Shown piece by piece: positions 5,012 through 31,856 of a stretch of DNA of 36,806 nucleotides; position 1 is the first letter of the stretch, and every line of letters starts with the position of its first letter. Origin of the DNA: an uncultured cyanobacterium (GTDB lineage Bacteria; Cyanobacteriota; Cyanobacteriia; Thermostichales; Thermostichaceae). The stretch spans positions 1 to 36,806 of the forward strand of contig CALFBB010000062.1 in the NCBI GenBank assembly GCA_937944885.1, given 5' to 3'. The translations under genes were made by a program, and so were the position numbers. The notes beneath the pieces were generated by a model. It worked only from the letters and a program-made list of their open reading frames with translations. It ran no database searches and was not told where the DNA came from.

Positions 5012-6088
5012 CTAAGGAGAGGGAGTCCCAGAGTTGCTAGGAATGCGCAGCTCAACCGTAGTATCCAGGCGAGAACGAGGGGGTGGAGGTTCTTCTGGGG
5101 CTGCTTCTAAGTAGCGGGCAAGGGGATGGTTTTCTTGCCAGCGGGATCCCACCTCACTGACCATTTGGGTGACCTGAATCTGATAGAGCTGTGCCAGTTC
5201 TGCAGCATTGAGGTTACTTCGCTCCACTTGAGCGCGGCTGGCCTCCGCCAGGACCTCCACCACCAGGTTCCCCTGCTCATCGAACCGCCACAGTTCCAGC
5301 CGGCTACGGGAGCGCAGACTTAGCTCTGTTGGCGAAGCCGGGCGGGTGAGTACATCCACGCGAGCAATAACAATCGCTTCCAACCCCAGGTAGTCAAAGA
5401 ATTGGGCAACCGCTTCCGGCTTGCGGCGGTCCCACTCAAACAGCTCATAGATTGGCCAGCCCACTTTGCGCAGAACCGGCTGCAGGCGGCGGTTGTCAAG
5501 GGGCACCACCGTTTCACTGTTGGGAATAAGACCGAGACGCACCGCCTCCAGCGTGAGACGCTGCCCCAACTGTTGAGTATGCTCCAGCCCTCCTACCCCC
5601 AAGATACCGAGGCGACGACGGGGCTGCGGTTGAATCAGCGGCTGCAAAACCACATCCACAGGGGTGGTCAGGTCTGCTTGCAGCAGGATTTCCTTTTCGG
5701 CCAATTCGTAGTCGGGATGCCAGACCGTCAACAGGCGGCGCCCTGCTTGTACCTGGTTCAGCTCAAAAACACCGCGCTCGTCCGTTTGCAGGGGTTGATT
5801 GGGATTCTCAACCCCCTCCAACCTTACCTGGGCCCCCACAACCGGCTCGCCAACACTGTTGCTCACTTGCCCCACCAGCCGGGCAGATCCCTGTGGGGTA
5901 GAACCCGAGTTGGCAGGGGGAAAAGGAGGGTTCTGAAAAGGAAACAGGGGTGTGAAGCGGGGAATGGGAGTAGTCGTTGCTTGAGCTAGAGCTACCCCGG
6001 CCAGGGCCAACCCGCTTCCGAGAAGAAGAAGGCCTGAGCTGATCATGCATTGCCAAAAGGAGCGGGGAGAGAAAGAGGGCATGGGCAA
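5012..6088 (-). CDS. Exported protein with carboxypeptidase-regulatory-like domain
   Basis: A 358-residue protein of unknown function. An N-terminal signal segment ends around ALAQA (residue 36), followed by a Pro-rich stretch (40-67). Residues about 69-148 form a carboxypeptidase-regulatory-like/Ig-type fold (RLVGQVSNSVGEPVVGAQVRLEG, then DERGVFELNQVQAGRRLLTV). The remainder to about 335 resembles the C-terminus of the next gene upstream: GLEAIVIARVDVL and YQIQVTQMVSEVGSRWQENHPLARY correspond to [13 protein letters not shown] and [24 protein letters not shown]. The tail is Pro-rich. It is the second gene of a probable operon, 53 bp after its paralogue. A cell-envelope role is inferred. Confidence 0.72.
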   Translation of the reverse strand: MPMPSFSPRSFWQCMISSGLLLLGSGLALAGVALAQATTTPIPRFTPLFPFQNPPFPPANSGSTPQGSARLVGQVSNSVGEPVVGAQVRLEGVENPNQPLQTDERGVFELNQVQAGRRLLTVWHPDYELAEKEILLQADLTTPVDVVLQPLIQPQPRRRLGILGVGGLEHTQQLGQRLTLEAVRLGLIPNSETVVPLDNRRLQPVLRKVGWPIYELFEWDRRKPEAVAQFFDYLGLEAIVIARVDVLTRPASPTELSLRSRSRLELWRFDEQGNLVVEVLAEASRAQVERSNLNAAELAQLYQIQVTQMVSEVGSRWQENHPLARYLEAAPEEPPPPRSRLDTTVELRIPSNSGTPSP

Positions 6089-6141
6089 GAGTCGGTAACG
6101 TCAGGCACAAAAAGCAGTTACAGGGATCTGCTCAAGGATCC

Positions 6142-8073
6142 TCACCCAGCAAAGGGGTTGTTGGATTGCCATTGATTGACAAAGACAGGCACCATGTTGC
6201 GCACCTGCAACCGGAACAACCCTGCTGCTGCATCTTCAAACAGGGGATCGCCCCCCACATCATCCCGTCCGTAGGCTTCGTAATAGCGAGCCTGATCCCC
6301 GGGGCGATCCCGCTGTAGATCGACCACCACTACCAAGCCGCGGCTGCGTAACTGATTGGGAGTAAAGTTGGGAATCTCCACCGGTACCATCGGGGCCACA
6401 AAGCGCAGAGCTGTATTTAACAAGGAGTTGCCCTGACGACTGTACTCCCGTGAGATTTGCAGTTGGGTCAAGAGAATGTAGCGCAAGCCAAGGGCATCGC
6501 CGATCACCTTCAGCTTGGCCAAATCAGAAGTGTAGCGTTCATCCCGATCCAACAGAGTGAGACCACGGGTAAGGGGTAACAGGGGCTCAAACTTAGGATC
6601 CGGCCCCAGTGGCCCATTGAGGAGCATCACCTGCCGCTGCGGCTGGAGTTCCTGCAGCGCAATGCTCAAGTGGCGGGCCAACTCATCCGAATAAACCGGT
6701 TCATCCGGCAGAAGGCCAATCCCCTGCGGCTGGTGGATTGGCTCCCCCGGCGGCAAGTGAATATCTTGGCTGGCTACAAAACCGGAGCGCACCTCCACCT
6801 GGGTACTGGTGATCGGGAAACCTGGCACCTCCACATCCACCAAGTACAACCCGGCCGGCAATGGCGGCAGAACATAACTGCCATCGGCAGCAATGCGGAT
6901 CTCCTGCTGGGGGTGGGTGGCAGTGGCGGCTAGGCGCAAAACCCCTGTCTGGACAGGCTTACCGGCAATATCCAAAACCTGCCCCGTTACCACACCATAA
7001 CCAGGTACGGCTGTTGCCTCTGCCAAATCCCCTTGCTTGGCAGTGATAGCCGCAGCCCGAGTTTGCATATCCCGCAACTGTAGTAAAGCCGGGATCCCTG
7101 CTGCTACCACCCACAGGTCTCGACCTGCCATCATCAAACCGGTCGGCTGTCCTTCCAGCCGCAGGGAAGCCACCAACCGTCCCTGCTGCAAATTCACCAC
7201 CTGCAGACGGTTGCTATCCCGCGAGGTAACATAGGCCCACTGCCCATCGGGGGAGAGCACCAGTCGAGTCGGTCGCCAATCCAGGCCGATGCGCTGCAAG
7301 GTTTCCCCGCTGCGGTTCAAGTCCAGCACTGTTAGATCTTGGCTGCCGGAGTTGAGGATCACCAAACGTTGCCCCCTCGAATCAAGTGCCAACATCTCTG
7401 GGGTATTTCCACCGCGCCAACGGGCCAGTAACTCGCCGTTATCGGGATTGACCACCACCAAACTGAGGGGATCCTCCCCAGCTAGGCCCACAAACAGGGA
7501 TCCCCGCTCCGGCTCATAGACCAAAGCCAAGGGTGGTCCTGGCAGCGGTAGGTTGCGCGCCCGTGGCTGATCCGGATGGATCACAGCCAAGCTCTGGGCA
7601 GAGGGCATGGAGGCAAAAACCCGCCCCGTGGCCGGATCCAAGGCAATATCCAATACCCCTGCCGCCAATCCATAGGCCTGGATCAGCTCCCCCGTGCGCA
7701 GGTCAATGGCCACCAACCCCGGCGCGTTGGGACCAGAGGCATAGAGCACTTGCCGCGCTGCATCCACCCGCACAACACTGGGGGCAAAACCCACCGAGGT
7801 GTACCAAAGGGGATCCCCATCCCCACCGGCCAGGTCCAGCAGAGTCACCGCCTGCTCCTCTAGCAACCCAACCGCCACCCAACCCCGCTCTGCCACCCCA
7901 TCAATCCGGTCGGCAGAGCCGCCCAAGGGCAGAAGAAAATCCGTTTCTGCGGTTAACCGGTTCTGACCGAGAACCGATTCCCTGGACCCAGATGGAGAAT
8001 TTGCTGGGATCCCTTGTCCCCACACCGGGGATCCCAACAGCATGCTTACCACAGCCAGCCATTGCCACCGCAT
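6142..8073 (-). CDS. Exported beta-propeller protein with regulatory-like domain
   Basis: A 643-residue exported protein. The signal peptide ends near VWGQG (residue 20). About residues 45-360 form a YVTN/NHL-like beta-propeller: repeats such as [55 protein letters not shown] and [21 protein letters not shown] carboxypeptidase-regulatory-like domain follows ([18 protein letters not shown], then [25 protein letters not shown]). A C-terminal domain of about 170 residues is related to that of the downstream gene and ends in [10 protein letters not shown]. The pair reads as one transcription unit divergent from the ribosomal operon. No enzymatic motif is seen; a scaffolding or surface role is a guess. 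Confidence 0.75.
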
Positions 8074-21094: not shown

Positions 21095-21859
21095 ATGTCT
21101 GGGTATGATACTGGAGGTCGCCGTTCCTCCTGGAGTGTCGGTAAAGCAAAGCAAGCGGATGCTTTGCTGGAGGATCTGTTCAAGGATCTGGAGCGCAGCT
21201 TTGAGGAAGGGTTAGAGCAGCTGGAGGAGTATCCCTATTTCGGTACGCGCCCCCCGTTGTTTCCTCGCCGTTCCTACGCCGCTGCAGGGATGCTGCTGGG
21301 GATGGCCTCGGCTGCTACCTGTGTGGCGGGGCTGGTCTTTTGGATGAGCTTACGCCCACAAGCTTTGGTCTTCTTGGATGAGGGGCTACTCCCTTCTGTG
21401 CAAGAGAGGGGGGGTTTGCCGTCGGATCCCCTACCGGATTCTTTTCTGGAGCAAGAGTTGGCAACTCAGCTTACGGCGGAGGATCAGCCTGAGGTCACTG
21501 CCGAGAAGGGAGAAAATTCAGCAAATCCCAATCCCTCAGTAACCACGACAACGGCTACTGCAACAGCGCCGGCTTCAACCCGGGTGGCTGCTTCGGTTGT
21601 TTCTGCACCCTCTGCGTCGGTAGCCCCACCCGTTCGGATCCCGCCCCAGCCAGTACCGCAGATGAAACTGGTTGGTTTAATCCACGACCCAGGTGCACCT
21701 AAGGCTCTGATTTTGATCGACAACGTGGTGCGGCAGGTGCCAGTTGGTCACCCTGTCAAAGGGGAGTGGCGCGTCACTTCCATCAGCCCCTATGGGGTAG
21801 CGGTTAGCAATGGGGCTCAAAGTGTCACTTTGCAGTTGGGGTTAACGCAGCGAGTTTGA
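21095..21859 (+). CDS. Single-pass membrane protein with GspC/PilP-like C-domain
   Basis: A 254-residue protein not recognised by name. The cytoplasmic N-terminus contains an acidic helical stretch (about 20-48), followed by one membrane helix (about 61-84), a Thr/Ala/Ser/Pro-rich linker (about 135-188), and a periplasmic C-terminal domain (190-254): MKLVGLIHDPGAPKALILID, VRQVPVGHPVKGEWRVTSISPYGVAVSNG and QSVTLQLG. That arrangement of helix, linker and small beta-domain looks like GspC/PilP homology-region proteins of type II secretion and type IV pili. GGAGAGG lies just before the ATG. It sits 86 bp after the DUF1517 gene and before a cyclophilin lipoprotein. Confidence 0.6.
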   Translation: MSGYDTGGRRSSWSVGKAKQADALLEDLFKDLERSFEEGLEQLEEYPYFGTRPPLFPRRSYAAAGMLLGMASAATCVAGLVFWMSLRPQALVFLDEGLLPSVQERGGLPSDPLPDSFLEQELATQLTAEDQPEVTAEKGENSANPNPSVTTTTATATAPASTRVAASVVSAPSASVAPPVRIPPQPVPQMKLVGLIHDPGAPKALILIDNVVRQVPVGHPVKGEWRVTSISPYGVAVSNGAQSVTLQLGLTQRV

Positions 21860-26485: not shown

Positions 26486-27862
26486 CTATTGTGGGCGGGG
26501 CTTGTGCACCTGTTTTTTTCCCACTTCTCTGCCCAAGTATTCTGCTTCTGTGGCTTCCGATTCCAAAAGCTGACGAAACTCCGGCTCATCCAAACGGTAA
26601 TCCCGTTGCTCAATCAAATCCCGCTCCGTAGAGTAAAGGGTATCTGATTCCTGCACCACCTCTTGACGGCTGAAGCGGCGGGCAAAATTGAGCTTACGCA
26701 ACAGAGCTTCTGTGGGATTCTTCAGCTGCTGCTGCCAGAGTTGGCGAACCCGGTTGCGGCGCTCCACCCCTCGGTTGCGTGCCTGTAGGGCAAACCAACG
26801 AATCGTGGGTATAGCCAGGAACAGGGTGCCGTAAAGAAACAGAAAGCCGATCAAGGGATAGATAAACGCCAAAAAAGCATTGCTCCCAGCCGCCGCCGCC
26901 ACTTCCCCGCGCGCTCCGTAAAGAATGGCCGCCAAGAAGAAATTGAGAACCCCTAACCCCCCTGCCAGCACCAACTGCTCCGGTGTAGCACGGCTAAAGA
27001 CCCAAGGCTTCTCCTGCAAGGCAGCCGGGATCCGCTGCGGCCGACGCTCCGCTGCCACTACCTGTAGCTCAGGGAAGCGGTAAACAATATCTCCCTCTTC
27101 ACTCACCTCCGGCTGACCATCAAACTTCATCAAAATCGGCAGCATGTAGTCTTCATATTCCAGAGCAGCCGATCCTGGCTCCACATCCAGATAAGGCAAC
27201 ACCTGCTCTGCCGCGATTACTCCTCCGTTGGCCTGAATCACCTGAGCAATCAGGGCGTAGCGTTCCTCCTCCAGATTGGCATTGGGATCCCCATCCCCAA
27301 ACAAAAAGCTGTAAACCGCCTCCAAGAAGTTCAGCTCCGATTTTTCCTGCTGTCTTGGATGCGGCCGTCTTGAGTGCTCACCCCGATATTCATATTCATA
27401 GTAAGGGTAGGGCTGCCAGAAGGGGTTGCCGATCCAAAGATTAGGAAAGTAGTAAAACCCTATCCCACCTCGCGAACGCCCGCGATTGTTGTCCTCACCG
27501 CGGCTGGCCGCCATCTGCAGAGCAATCAAGGCCAGGATGATCAAAACAATTGACACCACCAGCATGATGCCGAAGGAAATGCGCAACCCATAAAGGAACC
27601 CTCCCCAGAGTTTGCGTCGCAGAGCAGCCAGCCGATCCTGTTGTTCCTTGCGACTGAGAATGCTGCGAAACCCAGGTGGGAAAACGTAGGTAATCTCCCC
27701 CTGCTGGGAAACTTGTAAATGTCCTTCTGCCTTTTGGGCCAAGTTGAGCAGTTCTTGTTTGGCCTCATGTAGGGCCAAGCCCGTACGGGAGACAATATCT
27801 CCCAGCGTCACCCGTAGGCCCAGCTGTTCCACCGCATCCATTACCAATGTCTGTGCAGCCAC
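26486..27862 (-). CDS. Conserved two-module membrane protein
   Basis: A 458-residue membrane protein, conserved in cyanobacteria and, as I recall, related to an Arabidopsis plastid protein (At5g03900); function not established. A winged-helix-like module (about 8-62) ends in HLQVSQQGEITYVFPP. A helix (about 91-116) is followed by a Tyr/Arg-rich hydrophilic stretch, then a second module whose end, QPEVSEEGDIVYRFPE, mirrors the first. Two or three more helices and an Arg-rich C-terminus follow. A GTG at 27862 is preceded by GGAGGT with 5 nt spacing and is preferred over the TTG at 27949. The gene follows the TIR-TPR gene by about 210 bp. Confidence 0.75.
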   Translation of the reverse strand: MAAQTLVMDAVEQLGLRVTLGDIVSRTGLALHEAKQELLNLAQKAEGHLQVSQQGEITYVFPPGFRSILSRKEQQDRLAALRRKLWGGFLYGLRISFGIMLVVSIVLIILALIALQMAASRGEDNNRGRSRGGIGFYYFPNLWIGNPFWQPYPYYEYEYRGEHSRRPHPRQQEKSELNFLEAVYSFLFGDGDPNANLEEERYALIAQVIQANGGVIAAEQVLPYLDVEPGSAALEYEDYMLPILMKFDGQPEVSEEGDIVYRFPELQVVAAERRPQRIPAALQEKPWVFSRATPEQLVLAGGLGVLNFFLAAILYGARGEVAAAAGSNAFLAFIYPLIGFLFLYGTLFLAIPTIRWFALQARNRGVERRNRVRQLWQQQLKNPTEALLRKLNFARRFSRQEVVQESDTLYSTERDLIEQRDYRLDEPEFRQLLESEATEAEYLGREVGKKQVHKPRPQ

Positions 27863-28074
27863 TTTTGACCTCCACTTGTAGCCTGAACCTACAGCCCAAA
27901 CCCCCGAGGGATCCCGTTCCGCTATTCGACACAGGAGCTGCTGGGTCAAACCAGAACCCTCTATTCCCAGTATCCCTCTTCAACTCAAGAGCGGCGAGAG
28001 CAGGTCTCGGTTCCTCCTCAAGATTTGTGCCGGGACAGGGGAGCAAAGAGGGGAGCCAATTCAGTTCAGAAACC
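27863..28074. other. Spacer between TIR-TPR gene and membrane protein gene
   Basis: A 212-bp spacer with two same-strand genes on either side. The GGAGGT ribosome site (27863-27873 region, minus strand) of the membrane protein is its only recognisable feature. An upstream in-frame extension to 27949 is not supported by a ribosome site. Confidence 0.35.
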
Positions 28075-30183
28075 CTAAGAACCACCGTCCACCGGCTGCG
28101 GTTCCGGTTGGGGAGTAAGCTGCTCCAGCTTCGGCAAGGGCGTTTGCTCCAGAGAGCGCTGGTGGGCCAACTCCTGCAAGCCTGCTTTGGCCGGCTGAAA
28201 TTGCGGATCCAACTGCAGGCAACGCTGCAAACTGCTCTGCGCCGCTTCCCTCTGCCCTAGATGCAGTTGAATCAAGCCCAAAGTGTGCCAGAAACCAGGG
28301 CGATCCGGTTGCAATTGCGTAGCCTGCTGGGCATCTGCTAAAGCAGACTCCAGCTTCTCTAACTTCAGAGATTCCCAAGCGCGATTGTTCAGAGCCACTG
28401 CATCTTCGGGGGTGAGCTGTAAAACCCGTGAGTAAGCTTGGATGGCCTTTTCCGGATCCCCCCAATCACCATAGGTGAGCCCAAGGGCAAACCAGCCAAG
28501 GGGATCCTGGGCATTGAGACGAATCATCTCTTGGCAAGCGCTGTGGGCTTCTGGAAAGCGGCCCAGACGACGCAAACTGGTAATCTGGCCAAACCAACAG
28601 ACAAAACTGCCGGAACGTTGCTGCAGTAGCTGTTCAAAATGAGCCAGGCTGGCCTCGTACTGCCCTAACTCTTGTCGGGCTAGGGCTAGAGCATAACGGG
28701 CCGGAAAATGCCTAGGATCAATCTTGAGCGCTTCCTCGAAATGGATACAGGCTTCTTTTAGGTAGCCCAATTTCTGAAAGACCACGCCGCGGGCGTACCA
28801 ACTCTTCAAGTTGTCGGCATCGTAGCGCAGAGCTTTTTCCAGGGCATCACTGGCCAGTCGATACTGCCCCAAACGCAGCAACGCCACTCCCAAATTGTGC
28901 AAAGTGACCGGATCCCGTCGCCGCAGCCGCAGGGAGCGTTTGTAACACTCGATGGCCGAGCGCAGCCGGTTGCAGTGAAAGAAAGCATTACCCTGGTAGC
29001 GCCAAACCCGGGCACTTTTGGGGTTGAGCTTCAAGACACGGGCAAAACTGGCCGCTGCTGAACTGGGCCGCCGTAGCCGTCGCAGCACAATCCCACGGGC
29101 CAACCAGGTGCGAGGTTGTTTCGGGTTGTAGCGCAGAGCCTTGTTCAAGCTATTCAAAGCCAGCTTGGGTCGCTTCAACTGCAGCAGGCGAATGCCCCGG
29201 TTATGCCAGGCTAGAGCATCTTCCGGGTTGCTCTCCAGCACCTTGTCATAATTGACCACCGCCGACTTGTATTTTCCCAAACGCCCCAGGATCAAGGCCA
29301 GTCGGAGGCGGGTCTCCTCATCGTAAGGGTTGATGGTCAGGGATCCGTTGTAGCTGTCCACCGCCTCCCGGTAGCGGGCCAGCTGCACCAGCACATCACC
29401 GCGCCGGCTCCAGGCCAGAGCGAAGTTGGGATCCATATTCAAGGCGCGGTCGTAAGCAGCCAGAGCTTCCGTTAAGTTACCGCGGCGGCGCCAGTCCTCC
29501 CCCCGCTCAAATTGGATATCGGCGCTATTCCACTGAAACAGCCGCTGAATAAATTGCAAAATGGCAATCTGGCGGGCCCCTTCTTCAGGAGTAGCAGAGG
29601 GGGTTTCTCCGGTGGCAAGACGCATAATGGCCATCTGAATGGCCCGCAGAAAAGCTTGAAAGCCGCGTACTTCCTCGTCTTCCACAGGCTCAGAGCGGCG
29701 ATATTGCAACCGGAACCGTTGTAGATCCCCCGGCGGGGCAAAACGGGGATCCAAAAAATGCATCAGTTGCAGGGCGCGATACTCAAACAGCACCGCATCC
29801 TCATCTGAGCCGATAAAATCAAATAGCTCTGCTTGTTGGATAGGTCGGGGCAAATCCTCCACCGGCGTGTGGAGCAAAGCCAAAAGCCGCTGATTCTGCC
29901 GGGCAGGAGCATGGGGAAACCCGCTGTAAAGTTCATCTTTTGGCCAGGGATCTGCGAGAAATTCCGGGGAAACCACCAGGGCAATCCAGCGGCATTGCTC
30001 AATCGCTAGTTGCAGCTCCAGCTTGCGGTTGTCTCCCGGTTGCAGCATCCACTGGTCAAACCAGACCCTGAAGCCCTCCCGATCCAGCCGTTCCGCCAAC
30101 TGGCGTGCCCAACGAGCTTGAGCTCGGTGGTAGCGCAAAAAGAGATCAAACTTGTAATGCTCTTTGTAGTGTTCTGGAGACAT
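28075..30183 (-). CDS. TIR domain-TPR repeat protein
   Basis: A 702-residue protein with an N-terminal TIR domain (about 11-150): FDLFLRYHRAQARWARQLAERLDREGFRVWFDQ, then SPEFLADPWPKDELYSG. Trp80 and Glu84 have the W-x3-E spacing of the catalytic Glu in NAD-cleaving TIR domains such as SARM1, so NADase or cyclising activity is possible. A linker (150-219) is followed by 13 uninterrupted 34-residue TPRs (about 220-661) and a Pro/Gln-rich tail. TIR-TPR proteins occur in anti-phage and signalling contexts, but no defence effector neighbour is seen. Divergent from the polytopic membrane protein gene. A signalling or scaffold role is equally likely. Confidence 0.88.
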   Translation of the reverse strand: MSPEHYKEHYKFDLFLRYHRAQARWARQLAERLDREGFRVWFDQWMLQPGDNRKLELQLAIEQCRWIALVVSPEFLADPWPKDELYSGFPHAPARQNQRLLALLHTPVEDLPRPIQQAELFDFIGSDEDAVLFEYRALQLMHFLDPRFAPPGDLQRFRLQYRRSEPVEDEEVRGFQAFLRAIQMAIMRLATGETPSATPEEGARQIAILQFIQRLFQWNSADIQFERGEDWRRRGNLTEALAAYDRALNMDPNFALAWSRRGDVLVQLARYREAVDSYNGSLTINPYDEETRLRLALILGRLGKYKSAVVNYDKVLESNPEDALAWHNRGIRLLQLKRPKLALNSLNKALRYNPKQPRTWLARGIVLRRLRRPSSAAASFARVLKLNPKSARVWRYQGNAFFHCNRLRSAIECYKRSLRLRRRDPVTLHNLGVALLRLGQYRLASDALEKALRYDADNLKSWYARGVVFQKLGYLKEACIHFEEALKIDPRHFPARYALALARQELGQYEASLAHFEQLLQQRSGSFVCWFGQITSLRRLGRFPEAHSACQEMIRLNAQDPLGWFALGLTYGDWGDPEKAIQAYSRVLQLTPEDAVALNNRAWESLKLEKLESALADAQQATQLQPDRPGFWHTLGLIQLHLGQREAAQSSLQRCLQLDPQFQPAKAGLQELAHQRSLEQTPLPKLEQLTPQPEPQPVDGGS

Positions 30184-30320
30184 GAACGCCCGCTAGCTGC
30201 ATATCTCCAGCTTATCTTTGCTGCCGCCCGACTGGCTCGGCAGCAAGGAGCAAACCTTTTGTCGTGGCTGGCCAGATCCAGATCGGCGATAGTTGGGGAA
30301 GGATTGGGAGGGATAAACAA

Positions 30321-31856
30321 ATGTTGACCGGATTTTGGGTGCTTACTGCTGCCATTGGCCTAGCAGTCCTGGTGCTAGACGGGATCCGTTACCGCTGTTG
30401 GACAAGGGTTCACCCTTGGGACTTAGGGTTGGGTTTGGGCTTAGTGGCTCTGGTAGCGCTGGGATTGTGGCTGGGTCAGCTACCTGTGACTGCCTCTCTG
30501 GCCCTGTTGCTGGGGGGGCTGGTGGGGGTGGTATTGCTGGGCTTGAGCGGTTGTGGGCGGGCCGGCCAAGGGCTGGTGGTGCTGTTGCTGAGTTTGACTA
30601 CCGGCGCCAGTTTGCAGGGGTTTGGGGTAGAGATGGGGATAACCCTGTTGACCGGTGCAGGTTTGGGTTTGGGCCTGGTGGGGATCCCGCTCTTGGGCCG
30701 CTTTTGGCAAGGGGGCTCTGAGGGGATCCCCTTGCTGATGGCTTTTGGGCAAGCATGGCTGGGTCTTGCCGCCTTTGTCTGGGCAGCTCGGTTGATGGAG
30801 ATGGGATCTGAGCAGGACTTACCTTGGCAGCTGTTGTTGCCGGTTGGTTTAGCAGCCTTGAGCTTGGTGGCAGGCACCGTACCCCTGTTGACGGCTCCTG
30901 AGCAGGAGGCCACCGCCTCTTGGTTGCTGTCGGCTGTGGGCCATGGGGTGGGTTGGCTGGTGGCCACCACCTTGGCGCTGGTCTTGACTCGCAATGGCTT
31001 GTATCAGGATCCCTTTTGGGTGTTGTTATACGGAATAGGGGGGTTGCTCTCTTGGGGCCTGTTGGGATTAGAGTCTGGGCTCTCCTCTGACTCTGCCGGT
31101 TCTCTTCCTTCTTCAGCTAGGGCAGCAGCGGCATCGGCTCAACCGGAACGGGGCTTGTTGCTCTGGCGGGCCTGTTTGGGCCTCATGCTGGTGGGGGGAG
31201 GAGCCTTGCTGGCGCTGCGACTGGGGGGATCCTACGGGGCAGCTTTGCTGGGGCTGGGATGTTTGGCTTTTCCCAGCCGTTGGGGAGCCCTGGCCGCCCT
31301 CTTTTTGGCGGCCCGACCGCTGTTGCAAAATCTGCTGCACCAGTTCCATCTGCAAACTGCTGGGATCGATCTGACTCAGCCTTATGTCTATGCAGCGCTC
31401 TATTTGGGTATTGCAGGCATGCTGCTAGCGGCCCTGATCCATAGCTTGTACGGGCAGGATAACCCCCGCATCACGGGGATTAGCTTGACGCTGGCCAGCT
31501 TGGTTGTGCCGCCGGCGGTAGGGTATTTTATTCACGCCCAACCCCAGGCAGCCTTTCTCCTGGGAGCCTTGATGACAGCGTTGGTCCTGGCGGCTTTAGA
31601 GCCGGTTTTGGGGCAGCAAGCCTTCCAGGGAGGAGATAGGGGGTTGGCAACAAACTTTTGGGGGGCACAGGGCTTGTGCCTGGCGGTGGTGGCGATTCTA
31701 GCTGCTGACTTTAGCCGCGAGTGGACGGTAACAGGCTTCTATGCCACCCGCTGGGAGCGGGCTTTGGTCTTGGGGGGGATCGGCGGCCTTTTGCTGGTAT
31801 TCCTCTTGCTCTGGCAGGGTTGGAGCGCTTGGCAACAGATGCGGCTGCGGGCATGA
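30321..31856 (+). CDS. Polytopic membrane protein, unknown function
   Basis: A 511-residue very hydrophobic protein with perhaps 12-14 membrane helices and short loops, rich in Gly, Leu and Ala. I do not recognise a family; no transporter signature, quinone motif or catalytic motif is evident. The frame is open back to 30264, but GGGAGGG (about 30306-30312) lies 8 nt before the ATG at 30321, which begins MLTGFWVLTAAIGLAVLVLDG. Its stop overlaps the start of the thioesterase gene (ATGA at 31853-31856), so the two are translationally coupled and may act together. Confidence 0.72.
   Translation: MLTGFWVLTAAIGLAVLVLDGIRYRCWTRVHPWDLGLGLGLVALVALGLWLGQLPVTASLALLLGGLVGVVLLGLSGCGRAGQGLVVLLLSLTTGASLQGFGVEMGITLLTGAGLGLGLVGIPLLGRFWQGGSEGIPLLMAFGQAWLGLAAFVWAARLMEMGSEQDLPWQLLLPVGLAALSLVAGTVPLLTAPEQEATASWLLSAVGHGVGWLVATTLALVLTRNGLYQDPFWVLLYGIGGLLSWGLLGLESGLSSDSAGSLPSSARAAAASAQPERGLLLWRACLGLMLVGGGALLALRLGGSYGAALLGLGCLAFPSRWGALAALFLAARPLLQNLLHQFHLQTAGIDLTQPYVYAALYLGIAGMLLAALIHSLYGQDNPRITGISLTLASLVVPPAVGYFIHAQPQAAFLLGALMTALVLAALEPVLGQQAFQGGDRGLATNFWGAQGLCLAVVAILAADFSREWTVTGFYATRWERALVLGGIGGLLLVFLLLWQGWSAWQQMRLRA

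Follow-up and report, generated by a model that had tools for sequence, protein, structure and literature searches.

Paired exported proteins of Thermostichales and Gloeobacterales-like cyanobacteria share a C-terminal domain family outside Pfam and NCBIfam

The window analysed here is a stretch of 36,806 nucleotides from the 2.8 Mb draft genome of an uncultured cyanobacterium of the family Thermostichaceae. Two neighbouring open reading frames (ORFs) on its minus strand encode exported proteins, gene A (6142..8073, 643 aa) followed by gene B (5012..6088, 358 aa), with a gap of 53 bases between them (6089..6141). The pair is flanked by a homocysteine-biosynthesis (HcyBio) gene on one side and by the ribosomal protein/rpoA cluster on the other. 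Elsewhere in the window, a 702-aa protein (28075-30183, minus strand) combines a TIR domain at its N-terminus with a long TPR array behind it and is possibly a defence or signalling protein, and three sizeable candidate ORFs lack a Pfam match (21095-21859, plus; 26486-27949, minus; 30264-31856, plus).

The product of gene A, whose orthologues were found in 9/9 genomes of the order and in 9/9 deeper ones, consists of a signal peptide, a propeller, a CarboxypepD_reg domain and a C-terminal domain (CTD). Its signal peptide covers approximately residues 1-20 (8014..8073, minus strand, as are all features below) and contains no lipobox Cys, judged from the sequence, the alignment and a Cys/hydropathy check. 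Residues 45-335 (7069..7941) are predicted to form a 7-bladed beta-propeller, supported by AlphaFold2 (AF2), Foldseek and phmmer. The AF2 model has pLDDT values mostly of 80-95 and 28 strands, that is 7 x 4, and the best solved matches are of YncE type (YncE, Foldseek E 4.9e-18, TMt 0.79); phmmer matched the propeller to 1l0q at 4e-14. By propeller fold, A is thus closest to the YVTN-type 7-bladed propellers YncE of E. coli and Lp49 of Leptospira, which are likewise exported. It differs from both in carrying a CarboxypepD_reg domain and a CTD as well, and its propeller sequence stays under the YncE family cut-offs (PF21783, 19.5 against 27.1; NF052280, 29.1 against 400).

Gene B lacks the propeller. 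Its ORF opens at a TTG at 6088, and the orthologues favour an ATG at 6082 as the likely start. A signal peptide spans approximately residues 1-36 (5981..6088), assigned on the same basis as that of A, and no conserved Cys was found at the signal cleavage site of either protein in the Cys/hydropathy check. The CarboxypepD_reg domains of A (residues 362-440, 6754..6990) and B (residues 71-149, 5642..5878) both exceed the PF13620 gathering score, at 40.3 and 46.2 bits against a cut-off of 32.3. In the VIA comparison, the B domain aligned with the transthyretin (TTR)-like domain of carboxypeptidase D (Z 13.5, rmsd 1.4, 80 aligned) and with the NTE domain of SusC (Z 11.7, rmsd 2.0, 80 aligned). Since the VIA rows for B were filled by CarboxypepD_reg matches of this kind, that comparison excludes no family for its CTD. 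Unlike carboxypeptidase D and SusC, neither A nor B has a peptidase or a TonB-dependent barrel in the same protein. All these elements bear out the first-pass annotation, which had described tandem, exported proteins with a carboxypeptidase-regulatory-like domain, one of them with a 7-bladed-type propeller in front.

The same annotation had regarded the two proteins as paralogues sharing a CTD, and had proposed profile-profile comparison of the C-termini, for which no significant match, or domains occurring independently, would speak against the claim. We compared the CTD of A (residues 450-643, 6145..6726) with that of B (residues 155-325, 5114..5626) and obtained a significant match. Profiles built within the order only (9+9 sequences) gave P 4.1e-4, with a score of 31.0 where 100 column shuffles reached no more than 21.6, and profiles including the deep relatives (18+18) gave P 2e-6, with a score of 45.0 and no shuffle out of 200 column shuffles above 25.6. 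With a less redundant sequence set, P was 2.5e-8 (95%), and the CarboxypepD_reg domain and CTD taken as one unit yielded P 6e-16 over 241 columns. The reversed-profile control with the 18+18 sequences was null, as was the profile comparison of non-corresponding domains of A and B. Single-sequence similarity of the CTDs is weak, with a Z of 5.5 at best, for the window pair, and values near zero for several deeper pairs. The order of elements in the alignment agrees with the predicted secondary structures, read with a low-confidence model for A, and the CTD of A carries an insertion of about 35 residues relative to that of B. We conclude from these profile comparisons that the two CTDs are homologous.

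Of the conserved motifs quoted in the first-pass annotation, LGL[RE][YA]I and the final W-x4-P are broadly kept, but the MV of QVxxMV is not a general feature of B, most of whose sequences have MA. Of the AlphaFold models that it had suggested, those of the propeller and of the B CTD came out well, and that of the A CTD was poor and of low confidence. In both proteins the CTD is more conserved than the CarboxypepD_reg domain and, in A, than the propeller. Neither CTD has a Pfam or NCBIfam match, and searches with the CTD profiles gave no convincing sequence relative in the PDB. The CTD defines a domain family outside Pfam and NCBIfam; the parts of A and B are known folds or look-alikes of them. 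We also found no papers on the A or B genes, in line with the earlier remark that the pair is not a named system.

The CTD of B is predicted to be an alpha/beta domain with the order b-a-b-a-a-a-b-b-b-a, modelled by AF2 with pLDDT mostly of 72-90 per block. Foldseek matched the B model moderately to GNA1162, CT253 and LptE of several species (E 3e-5 to 5e-4, TMt about 0.4-0.54). The Foldseek output for B gives no aligned ranges; however, these chains of 125-172 residues were aligned over 160-190 columns, so the matches must reach into the CTD. In the models, B would therefore resemble these outer-membrane accessory proteins outside its CarboxypepD_reg domain. Behind the CTD, a Pro-rich linker leads to a tail motif, TTVEL (5048..5062). 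The motif T-x-[VI]-[EK]-[LI] is kept across the deepest split in 17 of the 18 B proteins, the eighteenth having NVTVEL, while the surrounding linker varies. The motif may resemble a TonB box.

To survey their distribution, A and B were each sought by their own CTD profile in 378 Cyanobacteriia genomes from 157 genera. Both were present in the same 18 genomes, comprising nine Thermostichales and nine Gloeobacterales-like genomes from three other families, the latter including G. violaceus PCC 7421 and G. kilaueensis JS1. Matches were strong throughout the Thermostichales (n=9, E < 1e-93) and in the Gloeobacterales-like group (n=9, E at most 1e-61 for A and at most 1e-43 for B), except for the B copy of one genome, G329, which is truncated at a contig end (E 1e-6). 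Neither gene was found in the remaining 360 genomes, the best E of 0.003 being within chance for that many genomes. The joint presence in 18 of 18 carriers holds in the draft genomes too, and corresponds to a Fisher value of 4e-31, which is overstated since the genomes are related; the co-occurrence represents two clades and hence few independent events. The co-occurrence that the first-pass annotation had wished to see surveyed was thus found, even where the genes are unlinked, and independent occurrence was not.

A sample across the phylum (292 genomes, other classes included) had returned no match outside the window's genus and suggested restriction to Thermostichales, a view overturned once the class-level sample reached the Gloeobacterales-like families. 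A contig scan with two conserved patterns matched members of the order only; these patterns do not fit Gloeobacter, and the scan is hence silent on the wider distribution. Viral contigs yielded no matches. Two groups of partial matches were rejected as relatives: propeller matches in other cyanobacteria belong to other architectures, for example a propeller together with an N-terminal extension but neither CarboxypepD_reg nor CTD, and CarboxypepD_reg matches in other classes of the phylum have different domain partners.

Gene A is directly followed by gene B in 9/9 Thermostichales, and the flanking genes vary among the genera. The two are also adjacent in G329, one of the deep genomes, where the B frame opens where A ends, so adjacency is likely ancestral. 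Four closed Gloeobacterales-like genomes have 1.4-2.2 Mb between A and B. Their joint retention over such distances is not mere linkage and argues for a shared role. No conserved neighbourhood beyond A-B was found across the genera examined. In one genome, G360 (locus L110:8504-11460), an outer-membrane beta-barrel gene (OMP_b-brl) lies between two tandem B-type genes, 3 bases away from the second B copy; this is the sole case, and no barrel gene adjoins A-B in the other genomes examined. In several Gloeobacterales-like genomes, a gene of 100 aa without Pfam match (L116:10330-10632 in one of them) follows A, and the gene past it starts like a radical-SAM protein in most of these.

In the trees of both A and B, Thermostichales and Gloeobacterales-like sequences separate at 100% as opposite clades, "Gloeobacterales-like" meaning grouping with G. 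violaceus and G. kilaueensis in these trees, for G329 in the A tree only. Among the cyanobacterial orders, Gloeobacterales are described as having diverged first and Thermostichales second (PMC13326532). Presence in both early orders, absence elsewhere and the opposite clades are together consistent with genes inherited vertically from an early ancestor and later lost once. Transfer of the genes between the stems of the two groups may instead have produced the same pattern.

We propose, as a reading that we hold to be somewhat short of an even chance, that A and B are two subunits of one envelope system, a periplasmic or outer-membrane adaptor pair that arose by ancient duplication. The first-pass annotation had likewise seen modular versions of one envelope system, to which the signal peptides, the CarboxypepD_reg domains and the fold resemblances lend support. 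In the proposed scheme, a duplication before Gloeobacterales split from other cyanobacteria would have given two copies of an exported unit of CarboxypepD_reg plus alpha/beta CTD, after which A would have gained, or B lost, the YncE-type propeller. Both products would act in the periplasm as soluble adaptors, on the inner side of the outer membrane, with their CTDs pairing through related folds. The propeller of A might hold one client protein, and the strand motif TxVE[LI] in the flexible tail of B might use strand addition to dock to a partner in the outer membrane, probably a beta-barrel. We infer the placement at the outer membrane from the fold matches of the B CTD, the kept tail motif and the barrel neighbour in G360.

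The same three observations would also fit A and B as accessory components of a transport or secretion machine in the outer membrane, steering one barrel as LptE does for LptD, or as GNA1162-like lipoproteins. We consider this unlikely: unlike those lipoproteins, A and B have no lipobox Cys and thus no lipid anchor, neither shows a sequence match to the LptE, GNA1162 or CT253 families, and the barrel gene next to B was seen in G360 only. A TolB-like role, in which A would tie outer-membrane and peptidoglycan complexes together during growth and division and B would be a propeller-less helper, has in its favour the combination of an alpha/beta domain and a propeller in one exported protein, as in A, and the general similarity of the strand and helix order of the B CTD to the clan in which Pfam groups CsgG and the TolB N-domain (PMC3173608). 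Moreover, TolB_N (PF04052) is missing from 9/9 genomes of the order; the control Synechococcus elongatus, however, gave no match either, and these lineages are therefore not unusual in lacking it. The domain order of A is the reverse of that in TolB, with the propeller first and an added CarboxypepD_reg domain, the propeller is of a different kind, with seven blades where TolB has six, and the CTDs show no TolB_N match in Pfam at E up to 1, which makes such a role quite improbable. Membership in the CsgG family was rejected as well, given that neither A nor B matches PF03783 and that the profile comparison of the CTD with the true CsgG of Thermostichus was not significant (P 0.03-0.1). By the features tested, A and B are not members of the TolB or CsgG families, though both may serve as functional analogies. 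Five further genomes of the window's genus (L070-L074) carry a true CsgG-family gene, away from A/B, but none turned up in the window's own draft genome or among the order's other genera.

Two further explanations were weighed. That A is an enzyme or a metal or redox protein acting through its propeller (lactonase, hydrazine synthase beta or similar), with B regulatory, is very hard to credit: the weak propeller sequence matches to lactonase and hydrazine synthase beta fall under the curated cut-offs, the best structural matches, YncE and Lp49, are non-enzymes, and the most conserved part of A is its CTD, not the propeller. Alternatively, A and B might share generic domains and do unrelated jobs, their common distribution reflecting no more than the disappearance of many old genes along the branch that led to the other cyanobacteria. 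The pattern does come from two clades only, and the genes are unlinked in most Gloeobacterales-like genomes; yet the joint presence in 18/18 genomes, drafts included, the homology of the CTDs and the adjacency kept in 9/9 Thermostichales whatever the neighbours render this improbable too.

Extending the adaptor-pair reading, we suggest, more tentatively than the pairing itself, that A and B may form an ancestral outer-envelope machine of cyanobacteria. The last common ancestor of the living ones would have had this machine, only Gloeobacterales and Thermostichales would still keep it, and a single loss would have removed it in the ancestor of all others; the CTD, as a new family of TolB-N/CsgG/LptE type, would be its assembly domain. 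What is chiefly new about the A/B pair is its phylogenetic pattern. A two-gene envelope system confined, within a sample this broad, to exactly these two groups would be a remnant of the cell surface of ancestral cyanobacteria, and losing it would signal that envelope make-up changed after the Thermostichales split.
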